Assembly (NCBI GenBank): GCA_021166725.1
Contig: JAJPES010000057.1
Location: forward strand, 62,001-126,000
Direction: 5' to 3'
DNA length: 64,000 nt
From: Burkholderiaceae bacterium
GTDB taxonomy: Bacteria > Pseudomonadota > Gammaproteobacteria > Burkholderiales > Burkholderiaceae_E
The notes under the pieces are model-generated. The model had not been told where the DNA came from. It ran no database searches and saw only the letters and a list, made by a program, of their open reading frames with translations. Positions 29,643 through 34,411 of this stretch are shown here, in pieces (the stretch's first letter is position 1; each line of letters opens with the position of its first letter). A program made the translations under genes and the position numbers.

Positions 29643-29860
29643 CCTGGCACTGATGGTCGTCGCAGCGACGCACACCAACCCGGCCAGGTATGGGCGATGG
29701 ACTTCGTGTCCGATGCACTGGTCAACGGAGCCAGGTTCCAGCTGCTGTTAGTCTTCGTCGACAACGGTTCCGAATTCACCGGGCGCCTGATGGACATGTG
29801 GGCATACCACCACCAGGTTCGCATCGACTTCGGCCGGCCTGGTTACCGCAGCACGGCGAG
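29643..29860 (+). mobile_element. IS3-family transposase (ORF B) remnant
   Basis: One frame reads QVWAMDFVSDALVNGARFQLL and shortly after VDNGSEFTGRLMDMWAYHHQVRIDFGRPG. These are two separate blocks of the DDE integrase core of IS3-family OrfB: the first Asp strand and the second Asp (DNGxEF) region. The roughly 60 residues normally between them are deleted, and the sequence loses similarity after RPG. No terminal repeats are visible. It marks the boundary between the catabolic island and the more AT-rich pilin-modification block. Confidence 0.75.
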
Positions 29861-29989
29861 GAAGTGCGCTTCCTGCGCCAGATCCTTGCATGCCTTCACG
29901 CGGAAGGCACGTTCGCGCTCACCTGCGGTCAGCAGTTTGTGCAGCGCTTTGGCGCGGAGTCGGCGCGCAGCACCTGAACACGGCGCATC

Positions 29990-31225
29990 TTATCCGAGTA
30001 GGCTTGGCGACTTGTCAGGACGACAAGTCCCTCGCGTTGCTCCGACAAACAAAACGACCAACAGGGCGAAATGCACTAATGCAATGGCGTGATAAAGAAG
30101 GCCGTCAATCAGCGCATAAGCAAGGAAGGCGAGAACGGCAGAGGTAAGAACCACGAGGCCGGGAGGCATATTCGACCATCGCTTCCTGGTCGACTCGCTG
30201 CCGCCCCCGCACTCCTGCCAGACAACGATACACAGCTTTGCGAACAACGCGCATCCGACAAACCCGAACTCTAGAAGAAACTGCAGGACAAAATTGTGCG
30301 GTTGAGCTACAGCGCTATTGCAGCAGGCCGAGAATATGTAGCCCTCCGGACCATATCCGAACGCGGGCCGCCGCAGGATGGCGTTGAACGCCTGCATCCA
30401 GATCTCGAGCCGATCTGCAACGTAAGCGGCCCGGCCAATGCCTTCGCCAAACCGGTAAAAAAGACTGGGAGCACGAACAAGATCGGCAGCGCCTAGGAAA
30501 TAGACCGAGCCCGCCGACAGCATTAGTGCAGACGCGCAAAATACAAACAACTGTTTGCGGGATCGTCCTAACACAATCGCCGCTGCCACGAACACCAGCC
30601 AGGCACCGATCGCTCCGCGAGCGCCGAGCAGGATAATGCCGAACAATGCCGCCGTAGTCAGCACGAACGCAGTCGCCTGCAATCTACTCGTCCGCACGAA
30701 AAGCGACGTGGCGAATGCAGCCGCGATGAAACCGTGATACGCAAAGTGACGTATATTGGCGTAGTGCGGGGCGCCTGTCGCAGGCAAACCCGAACCCGCC
30801 TGCAACGAGATCACCCAAAAAACCACGTATACGAGAAAGACGGCATGAACCAGCGGAACAAGAAGTAGGTACCTGTTCAGCACGTCGTCCACGGACCCTG
30901 CATGCACGACATAAAGGGCAATTCCGAACAGGAGGATGCTGTAATAAAGATGAAGACGGTTCAACGACCCGTAAAGGTTGGCTGCTCCCCAGACCGACAC
31001 CGCCACCGACATGGAAAAGACCGCTGCCCAGAAAAGCAAACGCCGACTGACGTGCAGTTCACGACCGGAAATCATCGCACCGACGAGCAACGTCGCCGCC
31101 GCAATGAAGACGTATTCGCCTACCTGTCGGTTGTAGCCATTCGGCGAAAGGCCGTAGTTGTCGACCGCCACGTAAACAAGTAACGCAAAACCCAGCGGCG
31201 GTAACCAGCCGATCGCGAGATGCAT
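29990..31225 (-). CDS. O-antigen ligase / O-oligosaccharyltransferase-like membrane protein (Wzy_C)
   Basis: A 411-residue polytopic protein with about ten to eleven predicted helices and a large periplasmic loop before the last helices. The Wzy_C signature region is AQPHNFVLQFLLEFGFVG (H-x-x-x-L-Q). Proteins of this family either ligate O-antigen to lipid A or transfer glycans to pilin (TfpO/PglL type). The gene lies downstream of pilA on the same strand, with a 3-nt gap after the sulfatase-fold gene, so a role in pilin modification is likely. Codon use is visibly more AT-rich than in flanking genes. Confidence 0.78.
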   Translation of the reverse strand: MHLAIGWLPPLGFALLVYVAVDNYGLSPNGYNRQVGEYVFIAAATLLVGAMISGRELHVSRRLLFWAAVFSMSVAVSVWGAANLYGSLNRLHLYYSILLFGIALYVVHAGSVDDVLNRYLLLVPLVHAVFLVYVVFWVISLQAGSGLPATGAPHYANIRHFAYHGFIAAAFATSLFVRTSRLQATAFVLTTAALFGIILLGARGAIGAWLVFVAAAIVLGRSRKQLFVFCASALMLSAGSVYFLGAADLVRAPSLFYRFGEGIGRAAYVADRLEIWMQAFNAILRRPAFGYGPEGYIFSACCNSAVAQPHNFVLQFLLEFGFVGCALFAKLCIVVWQECGGGSESTRKRWSNMPPGLVVLTSAVLAFLAYALIDGLLYHAIALVHFALLVVLFVGATRGTCRPDKSPSLLG

Positions 31226-31228
31226 CGC

Positions 31229-33121
31229 TCATCCCCCTGCGGAAAGGAGTATCCGCGCGCGATACGCGTCGATTCTCTCGATATCGTCCGGTGCCGGCTC
31301 GCGCGCCGTGAGCCGCCTGCCGGAATCATCGATTCGGTAGGCGATGTAGCCATCCACAGCAGGGGAATAATAGGTTATTCGATTCCCGCACCTCAAACCG
31401 ACGTCCTTGGTTCGCGCTAATGCAGGAAGAATGCGCTCACGCAGTCGCAAACGTCCTTGCGGATCGATTTCATAATAGCCCGCCCCGTCGCTTGCCAACC
31501 GGCGCTCGTCGAGCGTCTGGAAATCTTCGGCAGCGGCAAACCGGATCCCGGTTTCGACGGTCATGCAGGGATCCGCGGCTGTCAAACGGACTGTTCCCGT
31601 GAGAATGTAATGCTCAACTGCCGCGCGCAAGTCCGTGAGCGAAACCTGGTCGGTACGCACGTCGACATTCCGCGCCGAGGCGCGACCGTTTCGAAACGGA
31701 ACCAGGCCCAGAACTACTCGACTCTCGTCTTCGCTTAGTATTTGTGCACCGTGGCCGAACGCGGAGATCTTCAATCGACCGTTCGAGCCGCTGATCTCGC
31801 CTTCGATTTCACCCAGACTCTCACCGTGATCGGACAACACGACGACCAGTGCATCTTGGAGATACCCGCGATCGCGCAGCGCCGAAACAAGTTGACCGAC
31901 CTGCCGGTCCACCACCGCGAGCGCCGCAATATACCCAGCATAAAGACGATCGGAATCCGAGTCGTCCGGCCGCGCGTATCTCGACTTGTACGGATAATGC
32001 GCCGATTCGAAATGCACCGCGAGAAACACCTGGCGTGCGCCGCTCAGCGCCGCTATCGTCTCCTCGACGAACGCTCGCTTGTCGTAGTTCGCGAATGAAG
32101 CTGCATTGAGCCAGGAATAGGGCAGCAATACATGGCCGAGACGAGTCTGGAGCAAGAGATTGGTCAATGGGGTATCGTTGAACCGCTGAAGCAAGAAATC
32201 GAGAGCCCCAATCTTCGGACCTACGGTGCGGTCGAATCCAAATGATTCGTCGATATTCGAGAATCGGCGCTCATCGATCGCGAAAATTGTTCGATAGCCG
32301 GCCGCACGGAGGGTATGCGGCAGCAGATCCGATCGATCGACACGCTCCAAACCTCGCAGATTGAAGATCGCTCGATGGTCGGCGGGATAGCGTCCGCTGA
32401 GAATGGAAGTCCACGCGGGAAACGTGCGCCCCAGAGGCGTATATGCACGCTCAAATGTGGTTCCTTGCGAAAGAAGCGCCGTCAGGTTCGGAAGACGCTC
32501 GCTTTCATTCTCGATCACGCGCGCCGAAAGCGAATCGACGCCGATCATGATGACGTTGCGCGACTCGGGAGCGACGACGATCGAAATGCTTCGCCCCGAA
32601 TTGGCGTTCGCCGTAAGAGCGGTCACTAGCGAAATGCCCACCAGCGCGGGGAGCAGCTTTTTCGGGGCGACGGTACTTGCCGCCACCATCACTGCGAGAG
32701 CAAGGACCAGCGCACCTCCAATGAACATGCCGGGCCCAGCGACGGAGTCCAATGCCAGTGAGTAGTCTGACAGCGGGAAAGCGAGGCGATTACCGGCGAC
32801 GAGGACGAACCAGGCACCAATGAATAGAACCAGGCGGGACAACGCAGGTCGAAGGCCGACTGCATCAGTGAGCCGATCCGCAAGGAATTTCAGAACAAGG
32901 TAGAGAGCCAGCAGTGGAACCAGATGCCCGAATAGCACATTGCGGAGGACCTCCAACTGAACTGGCCGTTTCGCAAGCGCATCGAATGCGAGTGTTCCCA
33001 CTCCTTGTGGAAGATCGACCAGCGACTCCCAAGTCGAGAGACTGGGCGCGTAGTAGGCCAGAACGAAAGCGAGGAAGCCGCTTACCGCCAGAACCGAATG
33101 CCGTGGTGACGGGACACACAT
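31229..33121 (-). CDS. Membrane-anchored sulfatase/phosphoethanolamine-transferase-fold protein
   Basis: About 630 residues: five hydrophobic helices in the first ~190 residues, then an alkaline-phosphatase-superfamily domain. Metal and active-site segments are RNVIMIGVDSL (first Asp), LGRTFPAWTSILSGRYPADH (Thr/Ser nucleophile region), HFESAHYPY and VLSDHGESLG (Asp-His). This layout matches phosphoethanolamine/phosphoglycerol transferases and membrane sulfatases. A partner gene for a pilin- or glycan-modifying enzyme is suggested by its position between pilA and the ligase-like gene. The start is uncertain: 33121 (MCVPSPRH) or 33142. Confidence 0.75.
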   Translation of the reverse strand: MCVPSPRHSVLAVSGFLAFVLAYYAPSLSTWESLVDLPQGVGTLAFDALAKRPVQLEVLRNVLFGHLVPLLALYLVLKFLADRLTDAVGLRPALSRLVLFIGAWFVLVAGNRLAFPLSDYSLALDSVAGPGMFIGGALVLALAVMVAASTVAPKKLLPALVGISLVTALTANANSGRSISIVVAPESRNVIMIGVDSLSARVIENESERLPNLTALLSQGTTFERAYTPLGRTFPAWTSILSGRYPADHRAIFNLRGLERVDRSDLLPHTLRAAGYRTIFAIDERRFSNIDESFGFDRTVGPKIGALDFLLQRFNDTPLTNLLLQTRLGHVLLPYSWLNAASFANYDKRAFVEETIAALSGARQVFLAVHFESAHYPYKSRYARPDDSDSDRLYAGYIAALAVVDRQVGQLVSALRDRGYLQDALVVVLSDHGESLGEIEGEISGSNGRLKISAFGHGAQILSEDESRVVLGLVPFRNGRASARNVDVRTDQVSLTDLRAAVEHYILTGTVRLTAADPCMTVETGIRFAAAEDFQTLDERRLASDGAGYYEIDPQGRLRLRERILPALARTKDVGLRCGNRITYYSPAVDGYIAYRIDDSGRRLTAREPAPDDIERIDAYRARILLSAGG

Positions 33122-33371
33122 TCTGATCGACGCGTGGAACAACCGAATGGTGGCCGGTGAGGACTACCTGCTCACGACCGTCCCCGCGGGGCCGCATGAA
33201 CGGGACGGGCGGAGTCGAGCGAAGCGGACATCAAGCATAGCGCTGTGCAACCATGCGAGTTGTTTCGCGCGGACCGCGATTGACAGCGGCCTTCTTGCGT
33301 GCAACCGAGGGACTTGTCGAGTCCTCTCGCAATACATATTGTCTTACCTCTCTCCGACGCTCACTCTGGAA

Positions 33372-33921
33372 ATCGGGATAGGGGCGGTCAGCAAAGCTGA
33401 CCGATCCCCTCCCGCACCATTCGGCATGAGGGTCCGCACCGGACGGTTCGAGCGTTGAGGTCATGAGATCCGGGGCACGCCGAGCCGGTCAAACCAGGCA
33501 ATGGCATCGCCCGATTCAACCGCATACGGCTGTTACGTCACCAGCACCGGCTCCCACTCGTTCGGCCCTTCGCCCCGTGCCGGGGGGGGCTACTACGGCC
33601 TCTGCTGACTTCTCGCTCCGGGTGATCCCATCAGCCTTTCAGCCGCAAGGCGAGATCTCCCCGGGGGTAAGAGCGCACTCCTTCGCTGCACAACCGCCGG
33701 ATTTCCGCCGCCTCGCCTTGATCACGAGAGCTTCACGGTTTCATGCCCGCTCTGCTCGGTAGCGCCCTGCAACCAGTTCTCGTCCATCCGCTCGCAACTC
33801 ATGCTCCACGCTTCCTCCCCGTGCTCGGTCGCCCTCGCGCAGTTGCGCTTCGCTTCGCTCGCTGCGATCAACTTGCGGCGGGACTTGCACCTGCAGGAGT
33901 GTGCCCATATGCCGGGCGCAC
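33372..33921 (-). mobile_element. ORF-less group II intron (class C/IIC-like)
   Basis: On the minus strand the element starts GTGCGCCCGGCATATGGGC, the group II 5' consensus with the IIC-type first hairpin. Conserved internal segments follow in order: GTGCAAGTCC, GAGGAAGCGTGGAGC, CTTACCCCCGGGGAG and AGAAGTCAGCAGAGGCCGTA. Domain V is recognisable at about 33413-33449 (GAACCGTCCGGTGCGGACCC on minus), then a domain VI hairpin (GGTCAGCTTTGCTGACC) and a 3' end CCTATCCCGAT. Only ~100 nt separate domain III from domain V, so the reverse transcriptase ORF normally in domain IV is absent. The element lies directly behind the pilA terminator, the known target type for class C introns. Splicing competence is not shown; domain V seems to have one C-A mismatch. 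Confidence 0.82.
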
Positions 33922-33954
33922 AAAAAAGAGACTGCCCTATATGAGCAGTCTCTT
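33922..33954 (-). terminator. Rho-independent terminator of pilA
   Basis: A perfect 10-bp stem AAGAGACTGC/GCAGTCTCTT with a 9-nt loop is followed on the minus strand by TTTTTT, 20 nt after the pilA stop. The group II intron begins right after the T-run. Confidence 0.9.
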
Positions 33955-33973
33955 CCGAGATGACGCGGAAAGA

Positions 33974-34411
33974 TCAAGTGTGCCGACACTCGGCAGGAAC
34001 GTATTTGTAGTTGGCAGCGTTCGACGTCTTGCAAGCCCACGTCACGCCAGCACTCGCCGTAGCCGGCGTGAAGGTAAGTGCAACACCTTTTGCCGCTGTC
34101 GTGCCTGTTACCGTAACTACGCCAGAAGCGCATGCGATAGAGGCCATATTCGTGGTGGCAGTTGCAGTCGTATTGACTCCGTTGCATGAGTTGGCATCGA
34201 TGGTGCCGCCGGCATTGGCGATATTTTCACCGATCGTTGCTTTCGCGCCTGAAGCCATGATGGCCAGCTCCGAAACTCGCGCGCGAACCGTGTAGTCCTG
34301 ATACGCCGGCAGCGCCACCGCCGCCAGAATTCCGATGATCGCCACGACGATCATCAGTTCGATCAGCGTAAAGCCCTTCTGCACCTGCCTACGAACCTGA
34401 GTCATCTTCAT
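33974..34411 (-). CDS. pilA: Type IV major pilin
   Basis: A 145-residue type IVa prepilin. The leader [13 protein letters not shown] (13 residues) is cut before Phe, and the mature N-terminus [20 protein letters not shown] has Glu at position 5. [13 protein letters not shown] follows, as in classical PilA. The C-terminal Cys pair in [21 protein letters not shown] brackets the disulfide loop. The globular part is rich in Ala, Thr and Ser, giving many possible O-glycosylation sites. GGGGAG precedes the ATG. It is followed by a strong terminator, a group II intron and two likely pilin-modification genes; the pil chemosensory genes are 20 kb away. Confidence 0.95.

Follow-up and report, generated by a model that had tools for sequence, protein, structure and literature searches.

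A probable decaying deletion derivative of a group IIC intron behind the pilA terminator in a Burkholderiaceae bacterium

The locus and its question

Directly behind the terminator of a type IV pilin gene, an intron-like element without a reverse transcriptase frame raises the question of whether such a copy is maintained by a maturase acting in trans or is dying, the two outcomes that the original prediction had allowed. That prediction described a 550-bp minus-strand element directly following the T-run of an intrinsic terminator, and its place, strand and ends were right. Within the window, i.e. the whole 64-kb stretch of DNA analysed here, a 550-nt group IIC intron occupies the minus strand of 33372-33921; its first base is 33921 (GTGCGCCCGGC) and its last base is 33372, where the predicted CCCGAT 3' end closes. 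The terminator hairpin and its T-run abut the first intron base, and no gene is interrupted. The element and its surroundings are as follows.

29990..31225, minus strand: Wzy_C (O-antigen ligase family) protein (Pfam PF04932)
31229..33142, minus strand: sulfatase-family protein behind the intron (Pfam PF00884)
33372..33921, minus strand: ORF-deleted, degenerate group IIC intron (Rfam RF02001 and RF01998, R1 D5-D6 model, ends matching intact introns)
33565..33650, minus strand: second core segment, RF01998 group-II-D1D4-1 match (50.2 bits, cut-off 35, E 4.6e-6)
33671..33838, minus strand: D1 body, RF02001 group-II-D1D4-3 match (52.7 bits, cut-off 32, E 9.8e-8)
about 33922..33953, minus strand: pilA intrinsic terminator, the 5' exon and insertion site (fold)
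33974..34408, minus strand: pilA, type IV pilin (Pfam PF00114, PF07963)

An ORF at 29697-30092, which adjoins the Wzy_C gene, resembles by eye part of a transposase or integrase, and Pfam returned no family for it at E 0.001. The flank of the intron copy in G299, a genome of the same family, also occurs in Quisquiliibacterium transsilvanicum of the Burkholderiaceae (L078, L153), and the host of the element therefore probably belongs to the Burkholderiales.

Class and ends of the element

A scan of the window with all Rfam models at gathering scores gave two matches only, both to group II models and both inside the element on its strand. Since RF02001 and RF01998 exceed their cut-offs, the predicted class C is upheld, and insertion directly behind an intrinsic terminator agrees with that class, as had been proposed. 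Both ends of the element, when aligned with homologous copies, coincide with those of intact relatives, and no reverse transcriptase ORF is present inside it (ORF list, by eye). The class, the ORF-less state, the exact terminator site and the ends are thus supported.

The Rfam D5 model RF00029 has no match in the element; this miss says little, because L005, L028 and L032, whose D5 is intact, are missed as well and L007 alone is reached among ten intron loci scanned, and RF00029 was therefore set aside as a test of D5. A D5-D6 model built from 12 relatives with the window left out (R1) gives the element 73.8 bits (E 1.4e-12), its own members from G007 and G002 scoring 96.5 and 90.7 bits, and places domains V and VI at the 3' end of the element.

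Probable origin by deletion from an ORF-bearing intron

A genome of the same genus (G007) carries a 1840-nt intron (L028:209-2048) whose reverse transcriptase frame is open; it shares the 5' and 3' ends of the element and a terminator-like site. Identity between the two is 86% over query positions 1-371 and 76% over 372-550, and in the alignment the element follows positions 1-369 of the G007 intron and then 1661-1840. It differs from that intron in the absence of the intervening segment, which includes the reverse transcriptase and a DIVa-like segment, and in a changed D5. The G007 maturase passes NCBIfam TIGR04416, and its best solved relative is the GsI-IIC reverse transcriptase (6ar1, E 2.5e-129). 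The following features within the element were placed by comparison with its relatives or by folding.

33374..33413, minus strand: domain VI hairpin, which folds well; the CCCGAT 3' end runs on to 33372 (fold)
33416..33447, minus strand: domain V core, 4 of 32 bases changed, including the third triad base (alignment)
33461..33550, minus strand: broken C-terminal stub of the intron reverse transcriptase, about 30 codons (alignment)
33550..33551, minus strand: deletion junction joining position 369 of the G007 intron to position 1661, 1291 nt missing (alignment)

The stub is damaged by an in-frame stop and a one-base frameshift, and its alignment scores to three introns are 81-97, as against 30-34 for the best of 300 shuffles. 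The reported lack of a reverse transcriptase therefore holds apart from this remnant, and the element is no mobile group IIC retroelement, which would have a class C reverse transcriptase in domain IV. Intron matches were found in 12 of 61 genomes, the host included, and matches to an ORF-less relative in 68 of 399 genomes of the order, with at most two candidates scored per genome in the latter search.

Signs of decay in the intron core

The intron set used for comparison comprised 44 introns with both ends (43 and L005), of which 13 do not exceed 700 nt, 24 measure 1731-1883 nt and seven lie between or are longer; in one member, L254, a run of N gave a false start. Near-invariant columns were counted in 39 of these, L254 and the deletion forms L014, L103, L104 and L175 being left out. 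In a leave-one-out comparison the element departs at 23 of 213 such columns (15 of 160 in the 5' part and 8 of 53 in the 3' part), as against a median of one departure in the other 38 introns, 36 of which have nine or fewer and two of which, of unusual length, have 82 and 53; the both-ends search finds only introns fitting the end patterns, and more decayed copies escape this comparison. Eight intact ORF-less introns in the same set show 1-6 departures, much like the ORF-bearing ones, so that ORF loss by itself brings no decay.

The two core models behave differently. RF02001 scores 106.8-114.8 bits in L028, L032, L005 and L007, about twice the value in the element, whereas for RF01998 the trend is opposite, the element scoring above L028 (45.8), L007 (41.6) and L032 (35.9), with no match in L005. 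This latter part of the core is well kept and counts against reading the element as a relic. One of the conserved intron segments of the original prediction, CTTACCCCCGGGGAG, carries two extra bases relative to eight of nine other aligned ORF-less introns, the ninth (L175) being deleted there, and these bases are better read as a sign of decay than of conservation.

Across the 44 rows, D5 has no change in 30, one in nine, two in three and three in one, and the four changes in the element are the most. An intact catalytic triad and D5 stem are lacking, the triad being placed as described in the literature, and a compensating base pairs with the altered triad position. When folded alone, the D5 of the element loses its usual hairpin and does no better than shuffled sequence (z 0.09, 99 of 200 shuffles as good), as compared with z -2.67 and 1 of 200 for an intact D5, but the hairpin forms once D6 is attached. 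D6 and both ends of the element look sound.

A domain IV segment of the form TCAGA...GTGAAGC (or close) occurs in all 35 of the other aligned introns and is missing in the element; that alignment comprised 36 introns, and the eight without the anchor motif that were left out (L014, L084, L103, L104, L214, L215, L223, L237) include deletion forms that perhaps also lack the segment. By its position we infer that the missing segment is DIVa, taken as maturase-binding. The element has thus neither the DIVa-like segment nor the constrained core that would mark an ORF-less intron mobilised in trans.

Maintenance in trans or decay

The host genome (G000) is a draft of 3.57 Mb in 88 contigs, 89% complete. 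The class C maturase that had been proposed as a target of search in the rest of this draft was not found: PF00078 has no match there, the same search being positive in 3 of 14 control genomes, and the G007 maturase matches only the element and, weakly, a stretch of contig C61 (E 0.0065). The latter was considered as a second maturase stub and rejected, as it reads by eye as an acyl-CoA ligase gene. A maturase may be missing from this 89%-complete assembly.

Two further pieces of the host genome were noted. An 87-nt intron 5' fragment (C23:32652-32738, L002), 89% identical to the element, lies about 100 nt downstream of a tRNA-Ala gene and, as judged by eye, follows a different terminator. A hairpin of 37-38 nt resembling D6 and the intron 3' end (C7:6453-6489, L003) lies directly behind a tRNA-Val gene; it is palindromic and matched on both strands, and may be a fragment or due to chance.

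Most plausibly, the element derives from a class C intron by deletion and is now decaying rather than maintained in trans, a reading to which a probability of roughly 0.8 is assigned. Between the two outcomes originally allowed, dying is favoured over help in trans because 23 of the 213 near-invariant positions and D5 are changed, the domain IV segment is lost and no maturase was found in the draft. As judged from its site and ends, an ORF-bearing IIC intron like that of G007 would have entered by reverse splicing at the site that adjoins the hairpin of the pilA terminator. As the alignment shows, domain IV lost about 1.3 kb, including the putative DIVa and all but the last ~30 maturase codons, and the element would since have drifted behind the terminator as a non-mobile, probably non-splicing and little transcribed relic, as the lack of a visible maturase in the genome suggests.

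That the element is still active as a non-autonomous intron, its splicing and movement depending on a maturase supplied in trans in the manner of the ORF-less introns of Thermosynechococcus elongatus, appears improbable. Such mobility is known, as an excerpt of PMC2882425 describes, and the clean ends, terminator site, sound D6 and well-kept RF01998 segment would suit it, while the intron fragment on contig C23 shows that a source once existed; however, no maturase was found in the draft, the DIVa-like segment is gone, D5 and the RF02001 region are changed, and only one copy of the deletion form was found in that genome. Still less probable is a self-splicing, maturase-independent intron like C.te.I1 of Clostridium tetani, a bacterial intron which, as reported in an excerpt of PMC4424553, is ORF-less and unaccompanied by a related protein gene. 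The changes in the triad and D5 stem and the lost conserved positions argue against an efficient ribozyme, and with no interrupted gene there is nothing obvious that selects for splicing, although some residual activity is conceivable in view of the sound D6 and ends and the compensated triad change. Practically no weight falls on chance or an assembly artefact in place of an intron, for which no supporting point was found and against which stand matches to two curated models and an independent one, the coincidence of its ends with those of an ORF-bearing relative, and the T-run that precedes the intron at related sites, as counted below. Decay after deletion therefore remains the preferred reading of the copy.

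The pilA terminator as an insertion site

The terminator at which the element lies folds well (33921-33975: -23 kcal/mol, z -5.25, equalled by 0 of 200 shuffles). The pilin of G002, used as query, has matches in 16 of 18 genomes of the genus (none in G007 and G001), and 14 loci, one per genome, were read as the major pilin gene, the weaker pilin-like genes of G017 and G010 being left out. Intron sequence follows the pilA stop codon, with scores above all 300 shuffles, in six of these 14 loci (G000, G005, G008, G009, G011, G014), that of G011 being weak (score 38, best shuffle 26); the other eight score like shuffles. The sequences at the pilA terminator in G008, G011, G005, G014 and G009 (L126, L127, L132, L133 and L134, respectively) are 5' class C relics of about 70-150 nt. 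G002 has the gene order of the window and the terminator without an intron, and the terminator thus separates both gene blocks whether or not an intron is present. The original prediction had suggested that the element might influence read-through from pilA into the genes that follow.

A tree of the neighbouring phosphodiesterase-like gene, covering 12 of the 14 loci (all but G014 and G015), mixes occupied and empty sites: the locus of the element groups with the empty G012 (98/96), and G008 with the empty G003 (100/100). Its well-supported branches require at least three changes of state, either three gains or one gain and two clean losses, and a single gain alone is no explanation of the scattered occupancy. 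Over its first 88 bases the element is 90% identical to the G007 intron and 92% to the G299 copy, as against 58-77% to the other pilA relics, a closeness that would fit repeated insertion; a single ancient insertion that was later lost cleanly from some genomes is also conceivable, as is exchange of the pilA region. The relics of G005, G009 and G014 look alike beyond their break and probably represent one event. A common deletion point near position 90 of the 5' fragments was considered and rejected, as the fragments enter unrelated sequence and only these three share a continuation (by eye). An rpoB tree of eight genus members was discarded, the longest frame being wrong for some rows (two inner branches of ~1.6), and the rpoB search gave no match in G000, G007 and G009.

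Related sites were surveyed at 142 or more distinct places, all outside the genus except the window itself (as L045). Among the matches listed, TTT occurs in the 12 bases immediately preceding the intron at 132 of 142 distinct sites, and pilin genes lie directly upstream of three of 141 non-window sites (L094, L150, L248); in 120 contig stretches among the matches listed, the only two pilin-motif frames are both beside introns (L150, L248). It is tentatively proposed that class C introns land preferentially and repeatedly at the terminator of the major pilin gene, an idea that we regard as somewhat doubtful; the intron RNP may first encounter highly transcribed terminators, where the DNA is often open. 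Titles and abstract openings among the literature matches listed hold nothing on a pilA intron site.

ORF-less relatives in other bacteria

Six intact ORF-less IIC introns share one domain IV (L006, L007, L011, L075, L146, L218), their hosts being alpha- and betaproteobacteria.

L006:2510-3157: ORF-less intron, Cupriavidus campinensis plasmid
L007:2503-3131: ORF-less intron, Rhizobium sp. CIAT894 plasmid
L011, in G056: ORF-less intron; the coordinate list of the six gives L032:335-964, minus strand, instead
L075 / L107, in G336: ORF-less intron
L146:2197-2849, minus strand: ORF-less intron, Zoogloea MAG
L218, from 7234: ORF-less intron, Massilia cavernae

All six keep the DIVa-like segment, no maturase stub is visible in them, and by their sequences they are a candidate non-autonomous lineage. 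In G336, a single contig that is 99% complete, the 409-aa part of the G007 maturase has no match at E 0.001. L005, L202, L175 and the element look like separate ORF losses. A class-wide search with the lineage domain IV matched one of 369 genomes (36 nt, E 9.3e-4, at most two candidates scored per genome), and 72,556 plasmid records yielded nothing beyond the two already known; at this sensitivity the lineage is not widespread. Among the literature matches listed, titles and abstract openings hold nothing on this shared-domain lineage. Bacterial ORF-less introns are described as rare and nearly always accompanied by related introns in the same genome (excerpt of PMC4424553), and as increasing in some genomes (excerpt of PMC8919778).

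Miniature derivatives were also seen, namely L014 (G055, 223 nt), L104 (G253, 231 nt), L103/L105 (G381, 488 nt) and L026/L038 (G046, about 410 nt). In each of them the two ends of the intron are preserved and D5-D6 can still be recognised, large parts of D1 and the bulk of the ORF having been lost, and each lies behind a terminator (by eye).

Significance and comparison with known systems

In the element a known course of events, in which an intron loses first its protein gene and then its function, is seen at an intermediate stage, and the intact parent type occurs in the same genus. The common pilA site, which may be empty or hold 550 nt or the short relics, offers a natural series for the re-targeting and decay of class C introns, and its history is of more interest than the copy itself; the recurrent occupancy of the pilA terminator and the shared domain IV of the six ORF-less introns are the wider points.

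With respect to known systems, the ORF-less introns of T. elongatus belong to another class than the element. C.te.I1 resembles the element in that no related intron protein was found in its genome, but it self-splices in vitro, whereas the catalytic core of the element is partly degenerate and its host genome incomplete (excerpt of PMC4424553). In T. elongatus, as in the element, a deletion in domain IV removed the ORF and left a remnant of its terminus; however, those introns comprise 17 copies with common break-points, which related proteins mobilise in trans, whereas the element is single and degenerate (excerpt of PMC2882425).
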